This document shows, piece by piece, positions 1 to 29,252 of a DNA stretch of 64,000 bases. Origin of the DNA: Siphonodentalium dalli. Taxonomy: Eukaryota; Mollusca; Scaphopoda; Gadilida; Siphonodentaliidae. Below the pieces are notes generated by a model, which was given only the letters and a program-made list of their open reading frames with translations, was not told the DNA's origin and made no database searches. Both the position numbers and the translations under genes were made by a program. Position 1 is the first letter of the stretch. Each line of letters begins with the position of its first letter. The stretch lies in contig CP136068.1 of NCBI GenBank assembly GCA_032622095.1, positions 12,689,729 to 12,753,728 on the forward strand, in the 5' to 3' direction.

Positions 1-110
1 ATACATGTACTTCTCTTTTATGTAAATATGTTGTTACGATAGAAGAGTAATTGCATCAATTTTATTTTACTAATCTGCACAGTGTACTGACAACATGATG
101 GTTTGTATGA
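1..110 (-). pseudogene. Decayed copy of TMEM145-like exon 6 and its downstream intron
   Basis: Positions 7-106 align with 642-748, which holds the end and donor side of exon 6. The exon end is recognisable (plus-strand GCACAGTGTACTGACAACAT), but the donor has become ATTAGT instead of GTGAGT. No acceptor lies at the expected distance, so it is very unlikely to be a usable alternative exon. It looks like a local tandem duplication, about 635 bp apart, that lost function. Confidence 0.6.
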
Positions 111-716
111 TCCACATATGTGGGTAAAGGGGGGAATTCCAAAGACAATTCAGTCCACGACAAGAGGTACCAAGTATTACCCACCGGAAGCTGACATAAG
201 CTAATGAAAGGCAGAGGACTCTGCTGTATAGGCAGTTTCAGAATCAGTCATAAAGTTGAAATAAAATAAGCAAGAAAGCCCCACGTCCTCCTGTATATTG
301 AGTACCGAGTTTACCATATATATCGTATCAGATTTATAGATGCATTTATAGATAAGTTATACATTTCCCAAATTTTATTGGTGTTGTCCCATCCATAACA
401 GTAAAAATTAAGTTAATTTCGCGCAAGTAAGATATATATACTTATGCATAATAAATATATAAAGCACTGACAACTATTGGATTCCAAGCAAGTTGAATAT
501 AATCGCTATTTATATTGATCGAGTTCATTAGTTACATGTATGTGTTTCTGTTATTTTAATAAGAGATTTCTTATGTCTAGGCTTCCACACACTATCACAA
601 AAAGGTTTTATTGTTTGTGCGATTTCAGAGGTGTTGTTGTTAAATGTAATTCTCTTTATGTAAATATGTTGTTATGATAGAAGAGTAAATGAACCAATCT
701 TAATTATCTTACTCAC
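110..716. other. Intron of the TMEM145-like gene, no gene seen
   Basis: This AT-rich stretch holds no coding signal. It separates the decayed and intact copies of exon 6. TA-rich tracts lie around 318-480. Confidence 0.6.
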
Positions 717-788
717 CTGCGCACAGTACTGACAAAATGATGATGATAACATACACAACGAAGAAGGATATGTCTATTGGTAATATAT
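717..788 (-). CDS. TMEM145: TMEM145-like exon 6: first transmembrane helix
   Basis: This 72-bp exon completes codon 181 (Tyr) and gives residues 182-204 plus one base. After ILPIDIS it is a continuous hydrophobic run (FFVVYVIIIILSVL), the expected first helix of the seven-helix domain. The acceptor is TCTCTTTCAG and the donor GTGAGT, phase 1-1. The following exons, for the first cytosolic loop and helices 2-7, are not in the window. A decayed partial copy of this exon and its donor side is at 1-110. Confidence 0.87.
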
Positions 789-1762: not shown

Positions 1763-1847
1763 AAAATTCATCAGCAGAAAATTCTTTATGCAGTAGATCT
1801 TTACCATTGGTCATGTGAATGGTGTATGTCAAATTCAGCCCAATGTA
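1763..1847 (-). CDS. TMEM145: TMEM145-like exon 5: pre-membrane luminal segment
   Basis: This 85-bp exon gives residues 153-180 plus one base of codon 181. It reads YIGLNLTYTIHMTNGKDL and ends with FSADEF. The family has the matching LTNG and FSADEFG segment just before its first helix. N157 lies in an N-L-T glycosylation sequon in the luminal part. The acceptor is TTTGATTCCAG and the donor is GTAAGT, phase 1. The plus-strand region 1827-2035 holds several AATTCAGCCCAATG-like repeats that include the start of this exon in reverse, so the acceptor side has again been copied nearby. Confidence 0.88.
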
Positions 1848-2046
1848 CTGGAATCAAATAAAAAAATAGTTGAAATTCAACCCAACAGACTGAATGTCCT
1901 TTGTTAAATTCAGCCCAATGTAATGGAATAGTATAAAAATATAGTTTTAAATTTAGCCCAGCATACTGAATAATGTATGTAAAATTCAGCCCAAATGCAA
2001 TAGAATAATAAGTAGCCTAAAATACGAATTGACATCTGCGGTTGAA

Positions 2047-3108: not shown

Positions 3109-3733
3109 TGACATAAACCCTATTTTAAATGACATAAACCCAAGTTTATAAAGATGCAATAGAAATAGAAGAATCTTAAAGACATATTATGGACTTGTTC
3201 GGGTTCGTAAAACTGATCAATTAGTACTCAGACACTATGCTAATTGGGGGAATATAGCATTCTTCAAAATTTCAAAGAAATCGACCATACAAGTCCGTAG
3301 AAAACACTGTCTGAATTACGCTCAATTGTAAATATTTACATCTCGATTCGGGACGCAACAATCGGCGATAAACTAACAAAAATGATTTTCACCATCGATA
3401 CTCTTTGCATTTAATAAATATATAAGACTGACGGTGTGTTGTAAATTTGGGTTAATATTCATAAAAATAACTACTTTGAGCAAGATTATTCTCCATTTCT
3501 ACTTGATCACCCAGCCGGAGTGTTTCACGTCACTTTAAATGAAGCGACAAATGGAAACAACTGTCTGAAGTGCATGCTTCCTAACATACATGTATATAGA
3601 GGATGGTGGTCTGACAATGGATCAGACTGTATTTGCTTTTTCGACAGTCGGGAAATGATTGTTCATGCAACTATAGTGGTATCTGGGGGAGAAAAAAAAT
3701 AGTTTAATATCAAATTTTTAATGAGCAACTCAC
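3109..3733. other. TMEM145-like intron, no feature recognised
   Basis: A plus-strand 60-codon frame at 3520-3702 has no recognisable motif or splice context. Confidence 0.5.
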
Positions 3734-3940
3734 CTCTGAGTTAATTCCTCGACATCTAGCGACAGCAATAAACCACCACCTTTCTCGCGCCGACCGGAAC
3801 TCGCGTCCTCCCAAACATCGTATGACCTTGTTACCCGCGTCATTCGTCTCCAGCTCACATCCAGACTTTGAATCCAGTGGATTTAAGTTTATCACCTGGT
3901 TATTTTCTGGTTTCAAGACGGCCATCTTTTGCAGGCAGTT
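3734..3940 (-). CDS. TMEM145: TMEM145-like exon 4: PENNQVINL to RERWW
   Basis: This is the longest exon of the gene: 207 bp, residues 84-152, phase 0-0. It carries the strongest family signature: KPENNQVINL near its start, a Gly-Cys pair, an Arg-Cys pair followed by Gly-Gly, and FRSARERWWFIAVARC. In the family this block forms the end of the luminal domain, with cysteines likely in disulfides. The acceptor is TTTATAG and the donor is GTGAGT. An ATG within it (residue 89) is internal, because the upstream codons continue the exon 3 frame. Confidence 0.92.
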
Positions 3941-3985
3941 CTATAAATAGTAAAAATTGTGACAATCAGTCATTACTCGCATTAA

Positions 3986-4055
3986 CCCTTCCATGACTGG
4001 AGCCTCCTGAAAAAACCCTGTGCCAATGAATTCTCTTAATATATAAGTGATACAT
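3986..4055. mobile_element. Family F TTAA MITE fragment
   Basis: It begins TTAACCCTTCCATGACTGGA and reaches into the shared hairpin module (GTGCCAATGAATTCTC), then breaks off. Only the left part is present. Confidence 0.6.
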
Positions 4056-4174
4056 AAGTACATGGGAGATAATATAATAATAAATCCATTAAATTACAAG
4101 CATGCGACAGTAATTAGTTTCAATGCGTGGGACAATTATTACCCTGATGAGCCTGAATACTAAGTAACCATTTA

Positions 4175-4387
4175 CAGTAATGCTCTAATTAATCGACCTC
4201 TTTACCACAGCAGAATTATGGGTAACTTTTCAGGATTTAGTCGGAAATATGGCTTGTTGCCATTCATCGGAAAGCTCTCGGCGAGAGCTTTCCAATGAAT
4301 GGCAACAAGCCATATTTCCGACTAAATCCTGAAAAGTTACCCATAATTCTGCTGTGGTAAAGAGGTTGATTAATTAGAGCATTACTT
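4175..4387. mobile_element. Family A MITE, copy 2 (full palindrome)
   Basis: Two arms of about 105 bp fold on a GAAAGCTCTCGGCGAGAGCT centre. The left end is TA-CAGTAATGC. The right end has mutated to CATTACTT. Confidence 0.85.
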
Positions 4388-4499
4388 TACTTGCTCCCAT
4401 GGGACAGGGAGTGGTGGCTAGCATACATGTGCTGACAAGATCTTTCACTGCTCATAATCAGGTACCATTTTAAACCATAGGTGGGTCGAAGCATACACA

Positions 4500-4720
4500 G
4501 TTCAAGCGACCTTGCTCAAGGGTCACAACTTGGTGAGAAAAATCGAACAGCGTATAATCTCACAATTGAAAGCTGATCAATTCGGACAAGCCACTGCTGT
4601 GTGAAACTTGCATTAGACCGGCGGCAGGCTGTGAACTCATCTCAATGTGTTGACAGCGAAGACAAGTGCGACGCACTAACCACTGGACCACGGAGCTCCA
4701 CAACTTATGCAGATGGATGC
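4500..4720 (-). mobile_element. tRNA-headed SINE, minus strand
   Basis: Read on the minus strand from about 4700, it has an A-box-like TGGTCCAGTGG, then a degraded B box near AGTTCACAGCC about 45 bases on. A body containing CCTTGAGCAAGGTCGC follows, a motif common in conserved SINE central domains. The head and body order supports a tRNA-derived SINE. The family name is not assigned. Confidence 0.6.
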
Positions 4721-5029
4721 TGTTTATAGGTGGGGAATGTTCAGAAAATAAGTTCAATAAAAGGTCAGCAGACCACAGTGTCCCCCGAAAAAGTGGCAAG
4801 TCGATGCCGCTTTGTTGAAGAAATTAAAAAAAATTCTAAGTTGAAAAGGGTTAATAACTCCATACAAAAAAAAAAATTCCGTCATCTATATACATGTTGC
4901 ACATCTCCAATATGTGGGTAACAATACTTTGAAGTTTCAAATATCTACAATCAAAACTGTAGGGGAGTTGATCACGAAGGTACCCTCATACAGAAAATTA
5001 TAAAAAATGTTGAAATTTTCTAAGTCAAA

Positions 5030-5290
5030 AAGGGTTAATAACTCCGTCAAAAGATAATTTTTCCGTCATCTATATACATGTTGCACATCTTCAATATATG
5101 GGCAACAATATTCTGAAGTTTCAAATCTCTGGGATGAAATCTGTAGGAGGAGATGATTACACCATGAAGGTACTCAAAAGTGTGACGGACAGACGGACGT
5201 ACAGACGGACGGACGAACAGACGGACGAACGGACGGACGGACCCCGTTTCTATAGTCCCCCAAAAATAAATTTTTCGGGGGACAATAAAC
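5030..5290 (+). repeat. Dispersed-repeat tail with (GACG)-type microsatellite
   Basis: Two related blocks (about 4830-4990 and 5000-5180) share AAGGGTTAATAACTCC and GTCATCTATATACATGTTGC. They are followed by a GACGGACG-like array at 5185-5240 and a TCCCCCAAAAATAAATTTTT end. The layout resembles the 3' end of a retroposed element. Confidence 0.55.
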
Positions 5291-5721
5291 CGACATATGC
5301 CGTTTGTTGAACTAATTATTATCTGAACATTTCTTAAAGGCGTGCTGTACGCGAATCCGACCATTTATTAGATGCTTTCCGCTTTATTCAATGGAAAATA
5401 TGATACAAATGAATTAATTCGAGGACACAAGCTGAATATATACACATGCATGCTCAAAAGAAGCACAGGTATCAACATGAAAATTATATTTAAATAGATT
5501 TTATGACTCAAGCCATCCATAAACACAATTACAATATATTATAAGTTTCAGGTTTTGTGACAGAACCACAATTACATAACGGCTGGTGAATTGGGACAAT
5601 TAGAAATTATCACACATCGTCCAGAAAAATCTTTTATGAAATATATCAAATTCAAGACATCAGTTCTGCTGATGATTTGCCAAAAGAATTACATATTATT
5701 TGACACATTCGTCGGGAAATA

Positions 5722-5802
5722 CAGTAATTCCCTAAGTAATCGACCTCTTAACCACAGCAGAATTATGGGTAACTTTTCAGGATTTAGTCGGAAATATGGG
5801 TT
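5722..5802. mobile_element. Family A MITE, copy 3 (left arm only)
   Basis: TA-CAGTAATTCCC through GGAAATATGGG is present. The centre and right arm are absent. Confidence 0.7.
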
Positions 5803-5845
5803 GATCGGACTTTGCACTGAAAGGGTTAATTTTCTTGTTGTTATA

Positions 5846-6063
5846 CAGTAAATGTCCTAAATAATCGACCCCTAAACCACAGCAGAATTATGGGAAATTC
5901 TTCAGGAATTAGTCGGAAATATGGCTTGCATTGTGCCATTCATCGGAAAGCTCTTGATGAGAGCTTTCCAATGAATGGCAACAAGCCATATTTCTGACTA
6001 AATCTTGAAAAATTTCCCATAATTCTGCTGTGGTCAAAGGGTCATATACTTTGGGCATTACTG
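5846..6063. mobile_element. Family A MITE, copy 4
   Basis: Full foldback with TA on both sides (left CAGTAAATGTCC, right GGGCATTACTG). The centre is GAAAGCTCTTGATGAGAGCT. Confidence 0.83.
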
Positions 6064-6121
6064 TATTTCAGATTATACAAAGGGCTTAAATACTGGAAAT
6101 TTAGATGCAGTCTCCCTTTAA

Positions 6122-7354: not shown

Positions 7355-7849
7355 TTAAGTAACTTCTTTTTGTGCATATTATTGCTTTGTTCTCATCATG
7401 CTCATTGTATCCCTTCTGACTGATTCCTCATCACCACATATGATAACATTACGACAAGTTATGGATATAATGATCACTATTTGAATGTTTGGTCAATATA
7501 CTTATGTGGTGAAATATTGCAAATAAAGTTAACTGTAACAGTATATATTGAGTTCATATGTATTTACTCACCTGTTCACACATGGCATGCGTTACCATGG
7601 TGATACAATCACAATTATTTGACGTCATCCATCGGCATGCAGGTAATGCAAACTGATGGGCTGTCATCACTTATCATGACAATATATGGGTGTCCATACT
7701 GTAACCACATTTATATATACTAGTATGAATGCCCCACATGTGAGACAAAGAATTTCCATATACTGCTGTAAACCTGGTGTCCTGGATAATTTAATTACCT
7801 CTGTAAATTTGGTGGCAAAAGAGTTAAAGGAAATACCCATCCAAGAGTA

Positions 7850-7982
7850 CAGTAATGCCCTAATTAATCGACTCCTTAAGCACAGCAGAATTATGGGTAA
7901 CTTTTCAGGATTTAGTCGGAAATATGGCTTGTTGCCATTCATCGGACAGCTCTCGGGGAGTCGATTAATTAGGGCATTACTG
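7850..7982. mobile_element. Family A MITE, copy 5 (right arm deleted)
   Basis: TA-CAGTAATGCCC and GGGCATTACTG-TA ends are present. The left arm is intact but most of the right arm is missing. Confidence 0.8.
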
Positions 7983-8018
7983 TAATTAGATTAGTAAAGA
8001 AACGTTTATTATACATAC

Positions 8019-8093
8019 TTTGTCAGATTTATACACAGCTGCCCATTGAGATGGGTCATCAAAGTACATCATGATAGACTGGTGCTCATACTC
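8019..8093 (-). CDS. TMEM145: TMEM145-like exon 3: luminal FDDPSQW block
   Basis: This 75-bp exon gives residues 59-83 in phase 0-0. It contains the conserved block MMYFDDPSQW followed by VYKSDK, as in TMEM145 relatives. The acceptor is ATATTTTCAG and the donor is GTATGT. Directly upstream in transcription (8094-8712) are ten further copies of the acceptor plus the first roughly 37 exon bases. Only this last copy continues into the conserved PSQWAAVYK residues, so it is the functional exon. The upstream copies run into a TAA shortly after FDDL where the frame is intact. Confidence 0.9.
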
Positions 8094-8712
8094 CTGAAAA
8101 TATATAAGGTTAAAGGTCGTCAAAATACATCATGATAGACTGGTACTCATATTCCTGATAATATAAAAGGTTAAAGGTTGTCAAAATACAACATGATAGA
8201 CTGGTACTATAGTCCTGAAAATATAAAAGGTTAAAGGTCATCAAAATACATCATGATAGACTGGTACTATAGTCCTGAAAATATAAAAGGTTAAAGGTCA
8301 TCAAAATACATCATGATAGACTGGTACTATAGTCCTGAAAATATAAAAGGTTAAAGGTCATCAAAATACATCATGATAGACTGGTACTCATACTCCTGAA
8401 AATATAAAAGGTTAAAGGTCGTCAAAATACATCATGATAGACTGGTACTCATACTCCTGAAAATATATAAGGTTAAAGGTCGTCAAAATACATCATGATA
8501 GACTGGTACTCATATTCCTGATAATATAAAAGGTTAAAGGTTGTCAAAATACAACATGATAGACTGGTACTATAGTCCTGAAAATATAAAAGGTTAAAGG
8601 TCATCAAAATACAGCATGATAGACTGGTACGCATACTCCTAAAAATATAAAATGTTAAAGGTCGTCAAAATACAGCATGATAGACTGGTGGTCATACTCC
8701 TGAAAACAGCAG
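8094..8712 (-). repeat. 60/61-bp minisatellite made of exon 3 acceptor and exon start
   Basis: Ten tandem units of 60-61 bp lie directly upstream (in transcription) of exon 3. Read on the minus strand, each unit has a pyrimidine tract, TTTTCAG, then about 37 bases of exon 3 (GAGTATGAGTACCAGTCTAT and on). Units are separated by AACCTTTAACCTT-like intron sequence. Some units read CAG-GACTATAGTACC, a one-base loss, and one acceptor reads TTTTTAG. The genuine exon is the unit nearest 8019 and is the only one continuing into PSQW codons. Confidence 0.92.
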
Positions 8713-9497
8713 AGGTTACAGGTTTTATAAGGAGGATTCCCAAATTGTGATTGTTTGAGCCATTTGTATCTCAATAATGTAAATAAAAATCTAAGAAAAA
8801 GAGTCCATACTCCAAATGTAGTTTTTTTTGTATTTTTAGATAAAGTTACACAGAGCCCATATGTTAAACACACATGCTAGCTAGGCTCAATTGAGCTTCC
8901 AGATTTTCTTTATGTAATTTGGAAGGAGGTATAACATACATGTAGGTTGAACAATATATGAACTATTGATATATCGGCTTGATATGCTCGAAAAATACTT
9001 GCCACGGCCTCAGCCATTTCCCAGCTATTTTAAATTTTTGGCACATGTGAAACAAACGCTCTTTATTTCTACCATATCAGGTATAGACTAACACGGAATG
9101 CTCTTTTCTGTTCTGTGCCATGCACATGGTTGTGTTGTTTGTTCGGGACCTATATGGGTCCATATTGTATTTTTTATGACTTCAATATGGCTTTCTGGGA
9201 CATATAATGCCCACAGAAAGGTAGTTCAAGTGGACCTATTTTGATACTGGGAAATAATAAAAAAGCCAATATTATTAGGCGTGTTTTGAAGCACAAACTG
9301 CCATGTGGCTTTTAATTGATAACTATAAGAACACACCTGTAAGTCACAGGGGAGGTAATTAAGAGCAAGTGTTTGAACACTATGCCTATCTTTAACTAAA
9401 GCCATGTACGTAACATGTACATACATGTAGACCTCATGTGATAATTCAAATTGAATTAAAGAGATAATTTTAAGACATCAATTTCCTCAATGCCAAT
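8713..9497. other. TMEM145-like intron 2, no feature recognised
   Basis: No coding signal, and no clear transposon ends were seen. Confidence 0.45.
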
Positions 9498-9960
9498 CTA
9501 GGGACCTGCGAATATTCGAGATTCGATTCGATGTCAATATCGGGCACCCGATTCGAGATCGACCGGAAACAGTCCTCTGATTCGGATGTTTTCGAATTGG
9601 TGTTACACATGTACTTCGGTGTAGTCTCGTTTTGTGCATCTAAATAACACATGCCAAATGACCTGAACTCACAGAAATTGAAGCACATGGTTGCCAAGTT
9701 AGCCAATGTAGGTAATTTTGAATGTATGCATTTCAGAATAGACGTGCATTATGCAAATTATTTCTTTCGATCCCAACCCATGACAGTGATCAATCGCCGC
9801 ATACATTTGTAATCTGTATCGACACTATGTAAATTGGCAAACAATGTTAATCACTAGATCTCTGATTCGAATCGAGATTCGATTCGATGTCGTTATCAGG
9901 AAGGAGATTCGATATCGAGATTCGATTCGATGCAAAATCCCCGATTCGCAGATCCATATG
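9498..9960. repeat. GATTCGATTCGA-rich repeat
   Basis: Two blocks of the degenerate motif GAGATTCGATTCGATG lie at 9505-9560 and 9865-9945, near GGGACCTGCGAATATTCG and GATTCGCAGATCC ends. The same ends recur inverted at 15700-15815. A dispersed element is likely. Confidence 0.55.
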
Positions 9961-9995
9961 CCAATCCCTATTAAATTTAATGATAATTGGTTTAA

Positions 9996-10493
9996 AGGGG
10001 TACTGTACGCCATTTTCAATAAAGTCCTGGTAATAACAATGATCTAATATCGATAATATATAGAACAATAAGTAATTTGAGTCGAAAATGTATTCTGTGA
10101 ACATTCAGGTTAATAAGTTATATTAAAATCAAAGTTAATAATTTTTTGATACAAGTTTAATTTATGGGCAATGAATAGCACATATGATCGTGTAAAAAAA
10201 ATGTGTTGATATGGGGTGTAAACTCAAGCCACTCACTGACTAGTGACTATACAATGACTTAAATAAGTATATGGGACTAATATATAACATAACATTTATT
10301 TGATACATTTGCTTGAAAACTGTAGAAAAATTACTTGACAACGACAGTTTGTATTTTCTCATTCCGGCTAATCTGCCATCCGTAACATTACTTCGTACTC
10401 AACAAACCTTCATATAATGGAAATCTGGTTAATATAATCTATGACTAAGAGACTATAGAAAAACCAACAACAACATTTGAGTAAAGTATCCCT
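9996..10493. mobile_element. Family B TTAA MITE, copy 1
   Basis: The ends are AGGGGTACTGTACGCC and AAAGTATCCCT, flanked by TTAA at 9992 and 10494. The interior contains TATATGGGACTA and TTGCTTGAAAACTGT, shared with copies at 22014, 45350 and about 53000. Confidence 0.85.
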
Positions 10494-10569
10494 TTAAATG
10501 ACTTTAATTTAGGTTTTATTTAAACAGTGCTATGATTTAGTTTTGTTAGGTCACAATGTGTGTCTTTAA

Positions 10570-10928
10570 CCCTTTCAGTGCCAGGTCCGATTTTTGTACC
10601 ATAGGTCACCTCGCATACATAAGAGAATGCATTGGCCTAACAATTTTTCATCATTTGTTATTATTTTTTACAATTTTTTACAATTTTAATAATTTTTTCT
10701 TATATTCTTTAACAGACTTATTTTGTAGGTTTAGTGCCAGGGAATCTTACAATTTTCATGGGCATCAAAATTATTACTATGAATACTTGGTGATAGTTTT
10801 GAGTTATAACATGCCCCTAAGGTTTTAACCAGTTTGTTTTTCAAATTCGCTATAGCATGCTTTTTTTAGGGCAGATTTTACAGATGGTAAATTAGGGCCG
10901 ATGAGCTCGGCCCCTGGCACTGAAAGTG
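10570..10928. mobile_element. Family E TTAA MITE, copy 2
   Basis: It begins CCCTTTCAGTGCCAGGTCC after TTAA at 10566 and ends CCTGGCACTGAAAGTG before TTAA at 10929. It keeps half of the GCATTCTCTTATATATG hairpin. Confidence 0.75.
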
Positions 10929-10932
10929 TTAA

Positions 10933-11552
10933 CCCTTTCGGTGCCAAGGGCCGATCTCATCAGCCCTAATTTACGGTCTGTAAAATCGGCCCTAAAAAAT
11001 AAATGTTTTTTTTAAGATTTTTTTTATATCAATTAAATGCAGTGACTCTTGATGGTGAAATTGTTTTCATTACTTTATTGCCCGTAGATGCGCCCCAAAT
11101 CAAGTAGTAAATATTTACAGTTTAGCATTGTTCAAACAATGTTTTGGTGGAATTGTCGATTTGCTTCAAATTTTCAGCAATGTTAGTAGATTGCTACATT
11201 AATTCTTCCAGTTGGCATAGCAGCCGATTACTAACTTATCAGTTTCACGCACCCAAACAAGTACATAATATGTCTAATATTTGAGGTTAAAGAATATTTC
11301 TTTTCACAATGTGTACCTTTAACCCTTTCAGTGCCAAGTCCGATTTTTGTATCAACCCATATTTCCTTGATCATTTTTCAAATTTATTGATTATAATAAT
11401 GTGATACATTGATGGAAAGAGCTCTAAGATCTAAGAGCTCTAAAATCTAAGAGCTCTTTCCATCAATTTATTGCATTATTATAATCAATAAATTTGAAAA
11501 ATGATCAAGGAAATATGGGTTGATACAAAAATCGGACTTGGCACTGAAAGGG
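10933..11552. mobile_element. Family E copies 3 (partial) and 4
   Basis: A left end CCCTTTCGGTGCCAAGGGCC follows directly on the TTAA ending copy 2. A complete fourth copy runs 11323-11552 (CCCTTTCAGTGCCAAGTCC to its inverse, TTAA on both sides). The fourth copy is a long palindrome centred on AGAGCTCTAAGATCTAAGAG. The three copies are arranged head to tail over about 1 kb. Confidence 0.7.
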
Positions 11553-11902
11553 TTAAATAAAGCTAATTACATAGACCTTATTATGTGTATGGCATCATGC
11601 AATTTCCTCAATCTCTGGGTCTCCTATTGATAATTGGGGTTAAAAGAGGTGAGAAACTCATAGCAGTATACTGATAACTTAATCAATACCAATATGGGAA
11701 GCCTTATTGTTACCTGACTCCGTACTAGTCGTTTCATTTATCGACCAATACAATGTACAATGTAGTTCACCTGATTTGTCAGCCTATGTTAGGCAAAACA
11801 AAATCATATACGGCCAATCTACATGTATGTCACTACATCCCTGTCACTAACAGACTATAGTCATTTGTTGAACTTATTATTTGAACAATTTGTCAATGAG
11901 TA

Positions 11903-12086
11903 CAGTAATGCCCTAAATAATCAACCCCTTAATCACAGCAGAATTACAGGTAATTTTTCAGGATTTAGTCGGAAATATGGCTTGTTTCCATTCATAGGAA
12001 AGCTCTCAGTGAGAGCTTTCCGATGAATGGCAACAAGCCATATTTCTGACTAAATCCTGAAAAATTACCCATAATTCTGCTGTGGT
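11903..12086. mobile_element. Family A MITE, copy 6 (right end missing)
   Basis: Left end TA-CAGTAATGCCC. The palindrome is complete to TTCTGCTGTGGTT, and the terminal 25 bases are lost at the tandem junction. Confidence 0.8.
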
Positions 12087-12222
12087 TCACTTGATTTATC
12101 AGCCTATGCGAGGCAAAACAAAATCATATAAGAGCGATCTACATGTATGTCACCACATCCCTGTCTCTAAGAGAATATAGTCATTTGTTGAACTTATTAT
12201 CTGAACAACTTGTCAATGAGTA

Positions 12223-12435
12223 CAGTAATGCCCTAAATAATCAACTCCTTAACCACAGCAGAATTACAGGTAATTTTTCAGGATTTAGTCGGAAATATGG
12301 CTTGTTGCCATTCACCGGAAAGCTCTCAGTGAGAGCTTTCCGATGAATGGCAACAAGCCATATTTCTGACTAAATCCTGAAAAATTACCCATAATTCTGC
12401 TGTGGTTAAGGAGTCGATTATTTGGGGCATTACTG
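12223..12435. mobile_element. Family A MITE, copy 7
   Basis: Full foldback with TA on both ends and centre GAAAGCTCTCAGTGAGAGCT. Confidence 0.85.
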
Positions 12436-12603
12436 TAGTTCACCTGATTTATCAGCCTATGCTAGGCAAAACAAAATCATATACATGTATGGCCAATGTA
12501 CATGTACATGTATGTCGCCACATCCCTGTCTCTAAGAGACTATTGTCATTTGTTGAACCAATTATCTGAACAACTCGTCAATGAGTATTTAGTAAATAAA
12601 GGG

Positions 12604-13990
12604 TTTTAATATCAGTCAATAGAGATGTAAGATGAACCGTCTCCAGGAATAGATTTACATAAAACCAGCGACAATGATCCAGCTCCAGGTGTAGATTTAC
12701 ATAAAATCAAAGCAAATACGGTAGATTAATTTACAGAACAAATTACAGCTTTATTCAGACAAACCCACAACGTTGATCAAAATATGAATAATTTACTACG
12801 CAGGTCGAGTGGATTAACTGAGGCAACATATAGGTGCTTCCAAATGTCATCATCTGTTTGTTAACAAGAAACCACTATTCAACCATCCCCTTCAGTATTG
12901 ATTAAATTGCATTGAGTTCAAATATATGCAGACAAGGTACTCTTAATGCAGCCTGGAGTTAAAATGTATATATCTGGGTTTTTACCAGAGGGGCTGAGTG
13001 GTCCCCTCTGAAACATTCCCCTACCCAGAACACACATTAATGCCAATGTCACCTGTTTATCACCAGTAATAAATAAAATTTGCAAATGGTGTCCACTGAA
13101 GTGGACCATTTTATGGAAAATAATACTTTTGAACGAGACACACATCAAATTGTCATCAATAGTTATTCCTGTCAAGGCTTGTAATACATGTAGTGTGTCT
13201 GTCGTTTGCAGAATGAGGTCCCCATAGGATGAATTTAGTGACAGTATACCACACAGTGGGCTAGCATCACTAAATTCACCCTCTGGGGACATCATTCTGC
13301 TTATACTGGAGAGTGAAAATTGAAAAGAAAGAACTTTCATGTCTGGAGCTTAATTAGTACCAGAGGGTGAATTATTTTATGCTAGCCCGCTGTCACTAAT
13401 GATAATTGTCAAGAAAAAAAGGCAGATTTAAAAAAAAGTCCATGCGGCCGTCACGACGATTAATAAAAAATCACTAAACGGATTATCAGAACTAAAATCA
13501 CGCGAAATTTGTACAGTTTGCATGTACATGCAAAATTGCAAATCGACATTAGGAATCACCCGTTGTTATAAACTTGAAGATGCAACAACAGTCGCAGGGT
13601 AGCCTGATTATGTAGTGCTGGATGCTTCTTGGACAGATGATTCCATAGATGGGTCATTGTCCCAGATGCCTGCGATTTATACACCAGGTTGCATTCATCT
13701 CACGTGTAAGTCCCTGCACTACCTGCAGCGGTATCATGTTTAAAATAAACATGAATAATGACGACATTTTGTCCAGGGTCGAAGAACGCTCCGAAATTGA
13801 AAGTATCCCTTACCGAAATCATTAGCCATCTGTTAGCCATTCTTTAGCACTCGGAAGAGAAGGAATGATGGCTTACTGATGGCTAGCAGTTTTCAGAGGA
13901 TATGGATGGCTAATGCAAAATTTAGCCATCGAGGCTAGGTGATGGCTAGATGATGGCTTATTAGCCATCGCTTAGCCCTCCTATAGGCCG
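12604..13990. other. TMEM145-like intron 2 with a foldback repeat
   Basis: A 140-codon minus-strand frame (12918-13340) has no recognisable domain. It spans an inverted repeat (GCAGAATGAGGTCCCC near 13209, its partner near 13270-13300) that recurs near 25148-25230, so it is probably repeat sequence. 13820-14030 is dense in TTAGCCATC words leading into the 15-bp array. Confidence 0.5.
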
Positions 13991-14029
13991 AAATATTTAA
14001 ATGAGCTAAGCCATCGCTTAGCCCTCGAT

Positions 14030-14245
14030 GGATGGATGGCTAGTAGGCCGATGGCTAGTAGGCCGATGGCTAGTACACTACTGATGGCTTGTAAGCCGAT
14101 GGCTAGTAGGCCGATGGCTAGTAGGCCGATGGCTAGTAGGCCATCGATGGCTAGTAGGCCGATGGCTAATAGGCCGATGGCTAGTAAGCCGATGGCTAGT
14201 AGGCCGATGGCTAGTAGGCCGATGGCCAGTAAGCCATCGGATTGT
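14030..14245 (+). repeat. 15-bp minisatellite (GATGGCTAGTAGGCC)
   Basis: About 14 units of GATGGCTAGTAGGCC with variants. A multiple of three, it reads as MASRP repeats on the plus strand. There is no splice or start context, so coding is unlikely. Confidence 0.85.
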
Positions 14246-14589
14246 TAGCCCTGGACATTTAGTGATGGCTATATATGTTATATAACTTGCTTCAGGAGGA
14301 ATAACTCTTTGGAATCATCTATTTGAGAATGAATTATCTTTAAAATAATGTTATATCATAAAAATAATTTTTAACAACATATTTAACAATGTCCATTATT
14401 TTTGTTATCTTTTGCCAAGTTTTCATCATAAATAAAGTGGAAATGATTTGCAATTGTATCACTGGACACACGGACTGCATGGTATCTGGAATCATGCAAC
14501 ATCTTCACATTAGGCTGGGCCAGCCAAAGATTTCTTCAGATTTTTGTCAAAATTCAAAAGAAAATAGTCTGGTCAAGATAGATCTTTAA

Positions 14590-14774
14590 CCCTTCCAATA
14601 TGAGAACTATATATGCTGGTGCAGCATTAAAGAACCTGGTTCCAGCTGAATTCTCTTATATATGCGAGTTTCCCATCTATAGGGATCAAGCCTAGCATAT
14701 ATAAGAGAATTTACTGGCTAGAATTGCATTGGTACATGATTTTCAAAAAATTTCAAGAAGCTCCCATCGGAATG
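14590..14774. mobile_element. Family F TTAA MITE, copy
   Basis: It lies between TTAA at 14586 and 14775 and begins CCCTTCCAATATGAG. It contains CTCTTATATATGCGAG and its inverse around a CTATAGGGATC loop. Confidence 0.7.
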
Positions 14775-16154
14775 GTTAAATATGAATATGTTTTTTTTTT
14801 CAAGATGTTTAATGTGTCATATCATGCCCAATAAATTAGAAAATATAGTGCTGAGGATTGTACTTACCAATTTCCAGATTAATTTGTATATACATGTATC
14901 TTAGTGGCAGCAGGATATTTTCTCAGAATCTCAGGCAGAATGTTTGATAAACATGCGGATTTCTGAGAGTTATTTCACAACTTTTAAAATTAGCAGGCTC
15001 AGCTATCTTGAAGCCATTACAGTTCTAGTCCAATGAATCTCAACTAAAGAAATCACAAGTTTATAAGACTGCTAAGAACATAAGTGTAAAAAAACTGGAA
15101 CAACAAACTTCAATGAGCATGAGTGAATATAGACTAGCAGTTACAATTCAAATGTTGTTGAGTACAATAATCCCAGGATGCATTTATGCAGCCTCTATCT
15201 GGTTGGACCAACATATGGCAGCCATATGTCAGGTCTATGGCAGTCTTAGGAGAGAAGGTCTCCTAACCATTAATATGACTTTGGTGAAGGCTATAACATA
15301 TAAACTCCAAAACAAAACATCGCCAAAATGCAATTTTCGATGCCGGGAACACGTGTTGTGTAAATTCTCAGCTATACTACATAATGCATAATCTGAGACG
15401 GATAGACGGCGGATAACGCTGGCGGTTGCTCAGTCTCATAGCTATTATTATTCACGCGCTTTGTCGGTCCATCGGTGATCTCCAAGCTTTTGGCTACCAT
15501 GTTCAAAGCTAGAATTCAGGCGTTCAGAATTCTGTAGTCCTATAGTGGCTAATTGCTGGCTATACTTATATTTAATATATATAATCGTGATGTACAATAA
15601 GAATTATAAGGTGCATTCGTGCATATATACATCATTTTCTGTAATTAAATGGCACAAAAACAGCTAAGATCGATGTGTGAACTTGTCCGTAAACAGCCTA
15701 CTTTTCCATCAATGTATATTCGAAATTTCGAGTTGGCAATTTCGACTCGAATTCGAATCGAATTTGACTTTCGAATCGAATCTCGAATCGAATATCGAAT
15801 ATTCGCAGGACCCTAGTTAATTCATTATTGATACTCTCCATTAACAAAATTTCAGGTGTTGAAATCATTGTTATGTAAACAAAGTGATTTGTCAACAAAC
15901 ATCGCTAATCACATAGTAAGTTAAAATATTTAAGTCTATTAAAATATGATTTTCAGATATTTGTCAATGCTTTGACCTGTTTGCAATAATTTTGATTAAA
16001 CTTGGAATCTTGTTGAACTAATTCACAGGGGCTTAATTGCAATGTGCTCCGACACTGCCTCCCCCAACCCGCACTGTCATTATACATTGTATACATGTAT
16101 GTGCCATCCATATATACTAGTATGTACCGGTACTTGCTTAATGTCTTGGTAGTA
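14775..16154. other. TMEM145-like intron 2, mostly unremarkable
   Basis: A 92-codon plus frame at 15113-15391 has no motif. 15700-15815 is a TTCGAATCGAAT-rich repeat related to 9498-9960. Confidence 0.45.
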
Positions 16155-16336
16155 CAGTAATGTCCAAAGTATATGACCCTTTAACCACAGAAGAATTATG
16201 GGAAATATTTCAGGATTTAGTCGGAAATATGGCTTTTTGCCATTCATCGGAAAGCTCTCAATGATCTAAATCATGAACAAATTACCAATAATTCTGCTGT
16301 GGTTATATAAGGAGTTGATTATTTAGGGCATTACTG
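16155..16336. mobile_element. Family A MITE, copy 8 (diverged)
   Basis: TA-CAGTAATGTCC to GGGCATTACTG-TA. The right arm is shortened after AAAGCTCTCAATGA. Confidence 0.78.
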
Positions 16337-16684
16337 TATATACTAGAGATAAGGGGAACAATAGAATTTGTCTCTATTACATGTACATGTATACTACCAT
16401 GACATAAAGTAGGCGTGTATATAGGGACCGCACATAAACGCAGTGCAGGTGGCATGTTACATATACAAGCCACAGTGGACTAATTGGACTATAATCGGTA
16501 ATGCCACTGTAACAACTATAATGTTTACATAACAATTATTTTGACATGAGAAAACTTATTATTGGAGAGTTACATGCATTAATAATGAAAATAAGAATGA
16601 CTAGAAAGTTTATCTATTTTTACATAAACTTGCAGTAAGGAGGTGGAAGTTTTAGATGGACATTCATAGAAAACTACGTAATTG

Positions 16685-17486
16685 TTAAGCCAGTACACCA
16701 CAGTTCCGAAGGAATTTATGCTATATGAAGAACCACATCAAGCATATTATATAACAATAAAAATGTCAAAAAGATGACTTTAATCATAGTTTTAGAAGGG
16801 AAATTTTGGGAAGAGCGTTCTCAGAAAGTATACGAATTGAGTGGAAATGAATAACTTCCATAAAAAATACATGATCTGATCTGAGTAAAAGGCTGGCAAT
16901 TTAAATGAGTTCAATACTGATTCAAGAATCTCAAAAATATGTTAGGTGTATGCTGAAATTTTTTTTAACATCCATTTTGCAAGAATTCATATAAACCTTT
17001 GGGCTGTAATGAGTTATAGCCTCACTTTTAGGCTTTACATGTATGACCATGATAGCCAAATTCCCAGCTCACCAGCTATATCTAACACTTTGGCCTATTG
17101 TTGATTGCTCCCAGCTTGAGTGGACTGACCTGCATACCAACATTGGGCTAAGCTTCTTGATGTAACAGTTCATGGTATTTATGACTTCTCACAATTTTAT
17201 AGAACACACCTAACATAATGTTGAGATTCATGAAGCAGTATTGAACTCAATTAAATTGCCATATTCGAGCCATTTACAGGTTTAGATCATGAACTTTTTA
17301 TATCAGTTATTCATTTCTACTCAATTTTATACTGGTACTTGCTGAGAACGCTCTTCGAAAAATTTCCCTTCTAAAACTGTAATTATATACAGTCATATTT
17401 TTGACATTTGTATTGTTATATAATATGCTTGATGTGGATTATTTCAGATAGTGTAAATTCCTTCATATGGTGTACTGGCTTAACAA
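16685..17486. mobile_element. Large inverted-repeat element, about 0.8 kb
   Basis: The outer 150 bases at each end are inverted repeats. The left reads TTAAGCCAGTACACCA, and the right ends TGGTGTACTGGCTTAA. AGCATATTATATAACAATA and AGAACGCTCTTC also pair across. No coding frame lies inside. The interior near 17060-17140 resembles sequence at 56210-56280 and 62220-62280. Confidence 0.7.
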
Positions 17487-17490
17487 TTAA

Positions 17491-17917
17491 AGGTACTCAA
17501 TCCGATTCGATGGTCCCCATATCATCAGATTCCAACAACAACATAATTTTTTGAAATGCCACTTCAGTTATCAGAATCGAGTAATTGCACAAAAATAATG
17601 CTATCCACAGTCAACTATCTGCCCAAAATCTGTTATTTATCAACATTTTGTTCAAAGAAATTTGCCGGTTTGTTAAATATCTGACCAAAAAAAAGTCACT
17701 TGATTTTAGAGTTATCCATCTTCATCCGCAATTTGGTCTGAGACCGCCTTCTCGTCGACTGTTTACAGGGCCACTTGAAATTAATAGATTTCAAACATCG
17801 ATATCTGATCAATCTGAGCTTTGATGCCAGATGGGTTTCTCTACTCAAATTAAATATTTTTTACGCCCGAAGTCAAGGAAATAGTAATTTGCGAGCGTTA
17901 ATTCGGATTATGCATCT
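17491..17917. mobile_element. Family C TTAA MITE, copy 1
   Basis: It starts AGGTACTCAATCCGATTC after TTAA (17487) and ends before TTAA (17918). The second copy is at 46127-46567. It abuts the inverted-repeat element ending at 17486. Confidence 0.75.
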
Positions 17918-18373
17918 TTAAGTAGTTTTCTGTTTACATGTAGATCCATCTAAACTGTCCACCTCCTGACATACTAGAGTAGCTCAGGTGTAGAAACCCC
18001 TTTGAGTCCCTCTAACCAGAACACACATCCATGTTATTTAGGCCGTATTATTGGAAGCATGTTTACCCCAAGTGAACCACTGAGCAGTGAGTATCCAGTC
18101 GTTGAAGGGTTGCTATAAGTACAATTGTGTGGCGACTAAGTATACTTATATTCTTACTGAGTACATCGTTAATACTGTGAAGGCCATTAATAAGTGCCAC
18201 ACAATAACACATACGATTTCCATTCTATAGATCTGCAAATTGAAGAGTGCATTGTGCGTCAAACAGCAGAGTAAATACCAATAAAAGGCATTCTAATTAC
18301 CTGTCTGCAAAAGTTGTCGAACAATTATGGCACTTAAAAGGCATTTTTTAGACCTAGTTTGTAAGTAGATGTA

Positions 18374-18553
18374 CAGTAATGCCCTAAATAATCGACTCCT
18401 TAACCACAACATAATTATGGGTAATTTTTCAGGATTTAGGCGGAAATATGGCTTGTTGCTATTCATTGGAAAGCTCTCACTGAGAGCTTTCCGATGAATG
18501 GCAACAAGCCATATTTCCTGTGATTAAGGAGTCGATTATTTAGTGCATTACTG
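18374..18553. mobile_element. Family A MITE, copy 9
   Basis: TA-flanked CAGTAATGCCC to TGCATTACTG. The right arm has lost about 40 bases. Confidence 0.8.
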
Positions 18554-18691
18554 TATGTACATGTACAATACTTGCTGGAGTGAAAGTCAAATTTGGAAAT
18601 GGTCGTGGTGTACTGTACAACCAGTCTCTTTGAAAAGCCGATGTAAATCCTATATCGGATGTACATGTATGTTTCTAGAACTCTCTATTAA

Positions 18692-19080
18692 CCCTTTACC
18701 CAACAAAACGGCCAAAACCGGCCAAATAAAGCTTCAACAGCCTAAAATATCTTCGGTCTGTCTCAATAGAACCATACAAATATGGATATCATTGGAACCG
18801 GCTCATTGACCACATTGTCATGGTTACAGTTATGCCCTGTGCCAATGCATTCTCTTATATATGCGAGTCGACCATAGGTCGCCTCGCATATATAAGAGAA
18901 TGCATTGGCCTAAAAAAACACTTTTAACACTTTTTACTATTTTTTCTTACATTCTTTAACAATTTTATAATTTTTAATGTGTTAAGCCAATGCATTCTCT
19001 TATATATGCGAGGCGACCTATGGTCGACTCGCATATATAACAGAATGCATTGGCACAGGGCCCTTCTGTTGGGTAAAGGG
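18692..19080. mobile_element. Family D TTAA MITE, copy 2
   Basis: CCCTTTACCCAACA to its inverse between TTAA at 18688 and 19081, with two hairpin modules. It is nearly identical to copy 1 at 6963. Confidence 0.88.
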
Positions 19081-19593
19081 TTAAAATTAGGTTTGTATTG
19101 TAGGGATTCCTTCCATTTCATTTGAGAGTGGTGCATACAACATGGGATTTCATTGGTTTATGCCATAACAGATCACCTCACAGATCTGAGGTCAATGACG
19201 CATTGACAATTTTCCCATGCATTGCCAATGTTGATAACCAGACCACATACTAGTACTAGTAGTTGGCATAACATAGGCCCACACAAGAAGCAGAGGGCTG
19301 ATCCATTGTGCATGCGAGTACAGTTTGACGTCAGAGCTTGCTACATGTACATCATTTAATTTGGCATTACAAAGTTGGGCCAATGATTCTGTGCCAACTA
19401 TAGACATTGTACCAACCAAAACCAATCCAGCATATTTCATGGCATAGCTAGCGTTGCATATTGTGTCAGCAATGATTGTGTTTACGGAACATATAAAGTA
19501 CCAGTAGTTGATGTTCATGTATACATATACTGTGCCCATTGCAATGTATCGCATGTTCGTACGTACTAGTACCGTACCCTATGTAATGGACTG

Positions 19594-20434
19594 CCTGATG
19601 CCATGATGGTGGTTGAATTATAGTATTAACTTACATAAGGGTATTCAAATTCCCTCATACCCCCCTGATGACATGATGGTGGTTGAGCTCATATGGGTAT
19701 TCAAACTCCCTCATACCCCCCTGATGACATGATGGTGGTTGAGCACATATGGGTATTCAAATTCCCTCATACCCCCTGATGCCATGATGGTGGTTGAGCA
19801 CATATGGGTATTCAAATTCCCTCATACCCCCTGATGACATGATGGTGGTTGAGCACATATGGGTATTCAAATTCCCTCATACCCCCTGATGACATGATGG
19901 TGGTTGAGCATATATGGGTATTCAAATTCCCTCATACCCCCTGATGACATGATGGTGGTTGAGCATATATGGGTATTCAAATTCCCTCATACCCCCTGAT
20001 GACATGATGGTGGTTGAATTATAGTATTAACTTACATGTACACATGTACATATGGGTGTTCAAATTCCCTCATACCCCCTGATGCCATGATGGTGGTTGA
20101 GCACATATGGGTATTCAAATTCCCTCATACCCCCTGATGCCATGATGGTGGTTGAGCACATATGGGTATTCAAATTCCCTCATACCCCCTGATGCCATGA
20201 TGGTGGTTGAGCACATATGGGTATTCAAATTCCCTCATACCCCCTGATGGTGGTTGATTTATAGTATTAACTTACATATGGGTATTTAAATTCCCTCATA
20301 CCCCCTGATGACATGATGGTGGTTGATTCCCTCATACCCCCTGATGTCATGATGGTGGTTGAAGTATAGTATTAACTTACATATGGGTATTAACTTACAT
20401 ATGGGTATTAACTTACATATGGGTATTAACTTAC
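19594..20434 (-). repeat. 55-bp and 18-bp minisatellite made of exon 2 end and donor
   Basis: About 13 units of about 55 bp each contain, on the minus strand, the last bases of exon 2 (GAATTTGAATACCCATATG). Next to the exon, 20380-20434 is a tighter run of 18-bp units reading CCCATATGTAAGTTAATA, each with a GTAAGT donor. Further GTAAGTTAATACTA donors recur near 19625, 20030, 20270 and 20365. The array lies immediately downstream of the genuine exon 2 donor. Confidence 0.9.
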
Positions 20435-20509
20435 ATATGGGTATTCAAATTCGAAATTGAGTTGACCTTTTTTTGATAAGAAGCAGAATCTTGTTAGGAA
20501 TGTCCAGTC
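20435..20509 (-). CDS. TMEM145: TMEM145-like exon 2: luminal domain
   Basis: This 75-bp exon gives residues 34-58 in phase 0-0. It starts DWTFLTRFCFLS, which closely matches the family's first conserved luminal block, and ends in an aromatic-acidic stretch (FEFEYPY). The acceptor reads TATAATTTCAG and the donor is GTAAGT. Both flanks are minisatellites made from sequence at the exon's own edges. On the donor side the last exon bases plus GTAAGT are repeated. On the acceptor side the branch-point and pyrimidine region is repeated. The exon itself is intact with no stop. Confidence 0.9.
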
Positions 20510-21260
20510 CTGAAATTATAAGAAAAATAGTTACACGAGGATCCAAAATAGTTACACGAGGATCCAAAATAGTTACACGAGGATCCAAGAATAGTTACAC
20601 GAGGATCCAAGTATAAGAAAAATAGTTACACAAGGATCCAAGTATAAGAAAAATAGTTACACGAGGATCCAAGTATAAGAAAAATAGTTACACGAGGATC
20701 CAAGTATAAGAAAAATAGTTACACGAGGATCCAAGTATAAGAAAAATAGTTACATGAGGATCCAAGTATAAGAAAAATAGTTACATGAGGATCCAAGTAT
20801 AAGAAAAATAGTTACATGAGGATCCAAGTATAAGAAAAATAGTTACATGAGGATCCAAGTATAAGAAAAATAGTTACATGAGGATCCAAGAATACTAGTA
20901 TTATAAGAAAAATAGTTACACGAGGATCAAAGAATACTAGTATTATAAGAAAAATAGTTACACGAGGATCCAAGAATACTAGTATTATAAGAAAAATAGT
21001 TACACGAGGATCCAAGTATAAGAAAAATAGTTACATGAGGATCCAAGTATAAGAAAAATAGTTATACGAGGATCCAAGAATACTAGTATTATAAGAAAAA
21101 TAGTTACACGAGGATCAAAGAATACTAGTATTATAAGAAAAATAGTTACACGAGGATCCAAGAATACTAGTATTATAAGAAAAATAGTTACACGAGGATC
21201 CAAGAATACTAGTATTATAAGAAAAATAGCTACACGAAGATCCAAGAATACTAGTATTAT
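20510..21260 (-). repeat. 31/42-bp minisatellite of exon 2 branch-point and pyrimidine tract
   Basis: About 22 units of 31 bp (GGATCCTCGTGTAACTATTT and TTTCTTATACTT) or 42 bp (with an extra AATACTAGTATT) run up to the acceptor of exon 2. The unit's TGTAAC followed by a T-rich run is the sequence expected of a branch point and pyrimidine tract. The copy next to the exon alone has TTATAATTTCAG. Most units carry a BamHI-type GGATCC. Confidence 0.9.
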
Positions 21261-21393: not shown

Positions 21394-21745
21394 GAGGTAG
21401 TGGCCGAGTGGATAGTGTACTGGTCTCTCGTGCTAAAGGTCCGGGGATCGATTCCCGGTCGGGTTTTCTGACAAAAATCCAAACTTGGTCAGATTGTATG
21501 ACTGAAAAGTCTCATTCGTGATCATACAATATATATCCGAATACAAAACTGACTTCACTGCGACATCATGTCCAGGTACTAGTATGTTGTCGTGAGTGCG
21601 GTACGCTGTCAGATCAGGAGCCGACATAAATGGCTGACCCATGTACATGGGTGACTATGTGCATGTTAAAGAACCCGGCTGTAGGTTAGAGTAGCCCACC
21701 AAAGCACCGACCACAGTCGAGACCTGGACCCTGTCTGTAATTCTA
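21394..21745 (+). mobile_element. tRNA-headed SINE, plus strand
   Basis: The A box TGGCCGAGTGG (21401-21411) and B box GGATCGATTCC (21445-21455) are spaced as in a tRNA of Leu/Ser type, but the acceptor stem does not close. The body follows with GTGCATGTTAAAGAACCC near 21660, a motif of conserved-core SINEs in marine invertebrates. There is no poly-A tail. Confidence 0.75.
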
Positions 21746-21836
21746 TAGATAGTATTATTCGGATTTATGGTCAATCGATCAGAATCATCAGATGTTGATA
21801 ATGGAATATAATAATTACTACAGGTACAGTAATGGT

Positions 21837-22607
21837 CTAAGTAATCGACTAAGTAACCACAGCAGAATTATGGGTAACTTTTCAGGATTTAGTCAGAAAT
21901 ATGGCTTGTTGCCATTCATCAGAAAGCTCTCGGGGAGAGGTTTCCAATGAATGGCAACAAGCCATATTTCCGACTAAATCCTGAAAAGTTACCCATAATT
22001 CTTCTGTGGTTAAAGGGGTACTGTATGCCAAATGTTGTTGTTGGTTTTTATAGTCTCCGAGTCGGAGAATAAGGTAACAATCTTTTGAGTACGAAGTAGT
22101 GTTACGGATGACAAATTTACCGGAATGCAAAAATACAAATTGTCGTTGTCGAGTAATTTTTGTACACTTTTCAACCAAATGAATCAAATAAAAGTTATAT
22201 TATATGCATACTAGTCCCATATAATCATTTAAGTTATTGTATCGTCGCTAGTCAGTGAGTGGCTTGAGTGTTCTCCCCGTATCATCATAATATTTTAAGC
22301 GATCGTGTGTGCGATCGGTTTAACAATCCAGTATCCCTCAATTACTTTATCTGATTACGGAAATTCGTAATTTAATTGACGCCATTTTATGGCTCCAGTC
22401 ATAAATTCAATTTATATCAAATTATTAACTTTTAAATTATTAAATTTTAAGATAGCCTATTAACCTGAGCGTTTACAGAATACATCTTCGACTCAAATTA
22501 CTTATGTTTCTATATATTATCGATATTAGATCGTTGTTGTCACCGGAAATGTAATGAAAATGGCGTACAGTACCCCTTTAAGAAGTTGATTACTTAGAGC
22601 ATTACTG
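21837..22607. mobile_element. Family A MITE, copy 10, split by a family B MITE
   Basis: The left part 21837-22009 ends at TTCTGTGG and the right end resumes at 22582 (GAAGTTGATTACTTAGAGC) to CATTACTG-TA. Family B sits between. Removing it restores the normal CTGTGGTTAAGAAGT join seen in sister copies. Confidence 0.88.
22014..22577. mobile_element. Family B TTAA MITE, copy 2, nested
   Basis: AGGGGTACTGTATGCC to GGCGTACAGTACCCCT with TTAA at 22010 and 22578. It is inserted inside family A copy 10, so the TTAA duplication is directly visible. Confidence 0.9.
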
Positions 22608-29153: not shown

Positions 29154-29252
29154 CTCTCGCGTGGCGAGAGTCCCTTTCACAATCAACGCATCCGACGGCT
29201 CCAAAAAGAATAAAAACAGGGAAATAACCGCCGTCAATCCGACGCGGAACAT
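29154..29252 (-). CDS. TMEM145: TMEM145-like exon 1: start codon and signal peptide
   Basis: This exon gives residues 1-33 and starts with ATG at 29252-29250 in a good context (A at -3). Residues 5-17 are hydrophobic (core GLTAVISLFLFFL). A signal peptidase site is likely after Ala22 (S-D-A). The mature protein then starts with residues resembling the family's xVxGxLxTxE segment. The exon ends with GAG followed by a perfect GTAAGT donor, in phase 0. The protein is therefore expected to enter the secretory pathway with its N-terminus luminal. The open frame runs past the donor, but the intron sequence there has no family similarity. Transcript data are needed to place the transcription start. 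Confidence 0.85.

Follow-up and report, generated by a model that had tools for sequence, protein, structure and literature searches.

Minisatellite-like tandem duplications lying across 5′ or 3′ exon boundaries, with repeat units of 10-160 bp, are known in amphioxus as mirages and, as far as the portions of the two reports drawn on here describe them, occur in Adh3, the globins BflGb6 and BflGb9, PGBD5 and troponin C, with splice signals retained in many, not all, copies and with homogenisation within a cluster (PMC3087553, PMC3902484). Mirages by that name were not found outside amphioxus in the open-access literature searched. Variable internal tandem repeats at exon-intron boundaries are also reported in human segmental-duplication genes (PMC2812944), so that amphioxus is not alone in having boundary repeats; intron gain by within-gene tandem genomic duplication, linked to splice sites, is described in excerpts of further work (e.g. 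PMC4974935). The present analysis concerns exon-edge tandem arrays in the TMEM145 gene of the scaphopod mollusc Siphonodentalium dalli (assembly GCA_032622095.1, 2.23 Gb in nine contigs), within a stretch of 64,000 nucleotides (nt) at C8:12689729-12753728 (C8 being contig CP136068.1), hereafter the window. These arrays are best read as mirages, an already described kind of repeat in a new host.

TMEM145 lies on the minus strand, as do its exons and exon-edge arrays; coordinates without a contig or locus prefix refer to the window. Exons A (DWTFLTRFCFLSKKGQLNFEFEYPY, 20435..20509) and B (EYEHQSIMMYFDDPSQWAAVYKSDK, 8019..8093) are flanked by AG/GT borders, and their joined translation matches the Pfam family TMEM145_N over the contiguous profile positions 10-59 (E=5.9e-20). 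An earlier model-made annotation of the same DNA, the sequence-only reading, had correctly given both exons as 75 nt and had placed arrays beside them where they indeed occur. Array 1 (8054..8706, Tandem Repeats Finder, TRF) consists of 10.8 copies of a 61-bp unit across the acceptor (3′ splice site) of exon B and extends 40 nt inside the exon, each unit being composed of about 21 nt of intron end and 40 nt of exon start. Its ten upstream copies provide extra acceptors, with the AG kept in 10/10 as read from the sequence, and the copies are about 91% alike mutually and about 90% like the real exon B junction. One block of 182 nt, which includes the live acceptor and runs into the live exon, where it ends, recurs within the array with 98.4% identity, its three differences all falling within the real exon; since this block repeat takes in the live acceptor, the used splice site itself probably joins in array turnover. 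When eight of the ten extra acceptors were read through, in-frame stops were encountered in 8/8. Array 2 (19633..20445, several TRF rows combined), built of 55-bp units with an 18-bp sub-array at 20369-20445, lies at the exon A donor and repeats the final 18 nt of exon A together with intron sequence and donor copies. Beyond the real donor it harbours four perfect extra ATATGTAAGTTAATAC copies, three of them within the 18-nt array, and all extra donors sit past an in-frame V-S-stop. The two arrays thus carry copies of 18-40 exon nt, and their units cross the junctions as contiguous genomic DNA rather than as spliced sequence. In a DNA search of the species' own 2.23-Gb assembly, made for arrays 1 and 2 only, scoring best candidates only and passing over very common words, the units matched their home locus only, and a transposon origin of these arrays was rejected on this basis.

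Array 3 (20524..21260, entered without strand; units of 21, 31 and 42 bp) is located in the intron upstream of exon A, has its edge 14 nt upstream of the exon and repeats a presumed branch-site/polypyrimidine stretch. Neither exon sequence nor a copy of the exon A acceptor was found in 20524-21260 and, as its unit lacks exon sequence, array 3 was not classed as a mirage. The statement of the sequence-only reading that three arrays start exactly at exon boundaries therefore holds in modified form for arrays 1 and 2, which span the junction, and fails for array 3, which ends 14 nt short of it.

The same anatomy recurs at exons that the sequence-only reading had overlooked (D, F and G at the acceptor, F at the donor as well), so that an exon-end copy lies near the acceptors of B, D, F and G and the donors of A and F. 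A 75-bp unit in 2.4 copies (1825..2008, TRF) spans the acceptor of exon D (85 nt, 1763..1847), with AG absent from both upstream copies. Exon F (-5728..-5556 relative to window base 1, outside the window) has a copy at a 65-nt offset from its acceptor and, at its donor, a 181-bp array of 4.5 copies (L019:3188-3990) with exon-end copies; exon G (-17398..-17226 on the same scale, likewise outside) has a copy at a 46-nt offset from its acceptor. TRF by itself is insufficient for such a census, since it missed the copies beside the exon F and G acceptors, and exon-end alignment was used instead. The 3′ end of candidate exon D2 (717..788, 72 nt, a presumed transmembrane segment), together with its donor and adjoining intron (641-742), recurs in direct orientation at 2-100 with an 82% match, the pair covering 2..742 at a spacing of about 640 bp. 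These findings, together with the units of arrays 1 and 2 that match the home locus only, support that part of the sequence-only reading which assigned a common mechanism to the arrays, as local tandem duplication at the DNA level, for the exon-edge arrays and not for array 3. A diverged TMEM145 paralog is present on the same contig (C8:74481512-74498691), with called exon lengths equal to those of TMEM145 (A, 75 nt; B, 75 nt; F, 173 nt; G, 173 nt). No adjoining arrays were detected by TRF at its exons A-D, and no exon-end copies by alignment at its exons A-G (0/14 junctions; 1/16 counting D2), indicating that the TMEM145 arrays either postdate the split or were lost in the paralog.

To evaluate how frequent such copies are, the 40 exon nt at each junction were aligned with 350 nt of the intron beside them, and a cut-off was derived from 4,395 mismatched pairs, at their 99.5% point. 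TMEM145 was represented by 17 junctions of nine located exons, in sequence reaching down to C8:12670000, and the controls by 98 junctions (82 of dynein heavy chain and 16 of the TMEM145 paralog), which are a sample of two gene groups and not of the whole genome. The dynein control comprises 40 stretches (41 exons, 82 junctions) of 89 dynein places, near-identical copies, short pieces and unchosen places being left out; 85 muscle-myosin places in the genome were also left out of the junction counts. Control exon borders come from a simple score and some are perhaps misplaced (the rule was widened after a donor miscall at L070), and a few control flanks do not reach 350 nt. In TMEM145 an exon-end copy was found at 6/15 junctions, or 6/17 counting D2, equally within 180 nt and 350 nt. 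The controls gave 4/98 at 350 nt (dynein 3/82, paralog 1/16) and 3/98 at 180 nt (dynein 2/82, paralog 1/16). Two of these are clear cases, the dynein acceptors L049 (71-bp unit) and L039 (67-bp offset), in genes chosen regardless of repeats; the donors of L061 (14 nt exact) and of paralog exon D2 (15 nt exact) are weak matches, above the cut-off and unconvincing as arrays, without which the controls stand at 2/98. One-sided backgrounds for ordinary 40-mers within 350 nt were 14% in TMEM145 introns, 11% in the paralog region and 18% in random loci, and within 180 nt 11.5% (383/3342) in TMEM145 introns, 9.6% (130/1348) in the paralog region and 8.2% (148/1805) in dynein flanks, where low-complexity 40-mers were skipped in the background and kept for junctions, and where the paralog and dynein background stretches were taken unmasked for exons. 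The 13% obtained for dynein flanks within 350 nt is an either-side figure and not comparable with the one-sided ones. Tandem repeats of period at least 15 and match at least 70% make up 11.7% of the window; in 12 random 10-kb loci their share is 17.4%. Control junctions thus display no excess of exon-end copies (3/98 within 180 nt versus 8.2-9.6% for ordinary 40-mers), and seeding of duplications at splice sites is accordingly not seen.

The explanation that best accommodates these data, to which we assign a probability of about 0.8, is that the exon-edge arrays are boundary minisatellites of the mirage type, generated by ordinary local tandem duplication and array turnover and tolerated as long as the exon-proximal junction stays intact. 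In a genome where local tandem duplication appears to be very frequent (about 17% of random DNA), duplications would sometimes include an exon edge, and a block joining the end of an intron to the start of an exon, or the end of an exon to the start of an intron, would be copied beside itself. The array would then grow and be homogenised, probably via slippage or unequal exchange. The copy adjoining the rest of the exon retains a complete junction, as seen in the sequence, so that what the exon encodes stays the same. On the assumption that the spliceosome goes on using the exon-proximal site by exon definition, the extra sites would probably remain silent, as RT-PCR (reverse transcription PCR) suggests for amphioxus mirages. 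Splice sites themselves would not attract duplication, and TMEM145 would be rich in copies through its array-rich introns and perhaps through tolerated junction copies. Several points weigh against this explanation. Array 3 merely adjoins exon A and does not share the junction-spanning anatomy. TMEM145 exceeds its own intron background (binomial p=0.023 against 0.14 at 350 nt and p=0.009 against 0.115 at 180 nt, selection uncorrected; all p values assume independent junctions and are rough), although leaving out the two junctions from which the finding arose brings the count to 4/15, with p=0.15 (350 nt) and 0.085 (180 nt). It also exceeds the controls, with 6/17 versus 4/98 (Fisher p=0.0006) and, after dropping the two reader-picked junctions, 4/15 versus 4/98 (Fisher p=0.011). 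As TMEM145 stands above both the controls and its own intron background, a gene-specific factor is likely.

The sequence-only reading had proposed that duplication is seeded at splice junctions, and the corresponding rival, in which junctions actively seed duplication through R-loops or transcription/replication stalling, predicts a genome-wide excess at exon ends. It would account for exon-end copies at 6/17 TMEM145 junctions that are unrelated in sequence and unit length. The 98 control junctions, however, with four cases at 350 nt and three at 180 nt, lie at or below the intron background, and dynein at 180 nt even shows a nominal deficit (2/82 versus 8.2%, binomial p=0.031 for so few); an enrichment of repeats around splice sites in the rest of the genome, whose lack the earlier annotation itself had named as refuting its proposal, was thus not found in this sample. 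The junction, moreover, is not part of array 3. R-loops in particular are not favoured, since plus-strand GC skew in coarse 2-kb bins is +0.038 at array 1 and +0.108 at array 3, that is, negative on the coding strand and unlike the R-loop type, array 2 straddling bins of opposite sign. Active seeding is therefore considered very improbable. Hardly any more credit, and if anything slightly less, is given to the extra sites being functional, either in reinforcing recognition of the 75-nt exons, selection for which the sequence-only reading had invoked, or in a regulated unproductive splicing switch. AG retention in 10/10 extra acceptors of array 1, the four perfect extra donors retained in array 2 and the termination at stops of the routes read through, as such a switch requires, are compatible with function; retention of AG is nevertheless expected anyway of a young, homogenised array with about 91% similarity among its copies, AG is missing from the exon D copies, array 3 contains neither acceptor nor donor, and the paralog has no arrays at exons A-D. 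Selection for reinforced exon definition is further disfavoured by the stop codons to which the extra sites lead when read through.

A selection version of the preferred explanation is possible but doubtful, namely that duplications occur at junctions as often as within introns and are as a rule purged, constraint being relaxed in TMEM145 by its long introns or its diverged paralog. Consistent with it, the controls are at or below background and TMEM145 is above, the diverged paralog resides on the same contig, and the longest TMEM145 introns reach up to 12 kb. On the other side, numbers are small, the control deficit is nominal only, and the exons, with open frames and canonical splice sites, give no sign of decay. 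A bolder conjecture, only marginally more credible than active seeding, is that TMEM145 in this lineage might be a hotspot, of mutation or of tolerance, for the repeated copying of exon edges into introns, leaving up to 11 near-equal splice sites at one exon, the choice among which would be made purely by exon definition, and copy number perhaps tuning productive splicing.

The remaining exons support the assignment of the gene. The coding part of exon 1 (MFRVGL...TLATRE, 29154..29252) ends in the donor GAG/GTAAGT, and no exon-end copy was found within the 800 nt searched there. Exons 1 and A-D together code for TMEM145_N (E=2.3e-51, profile 1-130 of 131) and, downstream on the same strand, exon G (C8:12672329-12672562) matches PF10192, the GPR180-TMEM145 transmembrane domain. 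Exon C (207 nt, 3734..3940) has exon-end copies on neither side. Exons E (-656..-507 relative to window base 1, outside the window) and F were located via similarity to the paralog, while the D2 call is the top-scoring candidate and agrees in phase and length with one candidate in the paralog. Two segments of the locus are duplicated elsewhere on the contig. The exon C segment (3471-5534) has an approximately 97.5% identical duplicate 5 Mb away at C8:17636102, and a second copy of the exon G segment, which includes a 25-bp array next to the exon, lies in the opposite direction at a distance of about 330 kb (C8:12344558; 99.8% over 473 nt at exon G), the length of the 25-bp array differing between the copies and the exon G junction copy being found in both. 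The window also contains an approximately 110-bp repeat with many copies in both directions (951-1082, 5717-6068, 7846-7985, 11899-12440, 18371-18518 and 21821-22019) and a transfer RNA-like stretch (21395-21465) with a box-B-like GGTCCGGGGATCGATTCCCGG, by eye perhaps the head of a short interspersed element. Another repeat, dispersed and with its halves inverted (CCCCAGAGGGTGAATTT-like), is present at 13200-13310 and beside two dynein exons (L046:753-943 and L070:198-393). Among the gene families surveyed for controls, dynein exons at C3:24988517, C3:57828242 and C6:62041058 have near-equal scores and matching neighbour exons, suggesting recent gene copies, and many muscle-myosin-like matches of near-equal score at C4:274.2-275.5 Mb suggest a local gene cluster.

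The sequence-only reading had regarded the arrays as a candidate for an undescribed phenomenon, a claim superseded by the amphioxus mirages, already known from the reports cited at the outset (PMC3087553, PMC3902484). As far as those reports are represented here, the agreement is close: the TMEM145 units combine exon and intron sequence across the boundary, both boundary types are hit (acceptors of B, D, F and G; donors of A and F), and AG is kept in array 1 (10/10) and absent from the exon D copies. The differences are that the host is a mollusc and not a cephalochordate and that 6/17 located junctions of one gene are affected, known here from the DNA of one haplotype. In keeping with a molluscan or closely related host, a peptide from three muscle-myosin exons of this genome, among the best 60 of 108 solved-structure matches, scores highest against chains such as 2os8, 2ec6, 1dfk and 3i5f (386-390 bits), which come from scallop and squid, followed by 3jbh (346 bits) and by the vertebrate myosin-7 chains (at most 333 bits). 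The haemocyanin domain, considered as a marker of affiliation, had no match here and none in the control genomes, and so carries no information on the host. The human boundary repeats, in the part of the report considered (PMC2812944), are likewise minisatellite-sized and situated at exon-intron boundaries, but they are reported to alter the transcript and form new introns, whereas the TMEM145 exons look unchanged; and unlike intron gain by tandem genomic duplication, as outlined in the source excerpted (PMC4974935), the TMEM145 copies lie within existing introns and imply no new intron. Natural acceptors and donors that stand in strings of nearly identical copies next to a single exon offer a ready test of how the spliceosome chooses among equal sites, and exon-edge copies constitute raw material for intron and exon change. 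The TMEM145 case, which also provides a small frequency count of mirages against intron background, suggests that mirages accompany tandem-repeat-rich genomes, rather than amphioxus alone.

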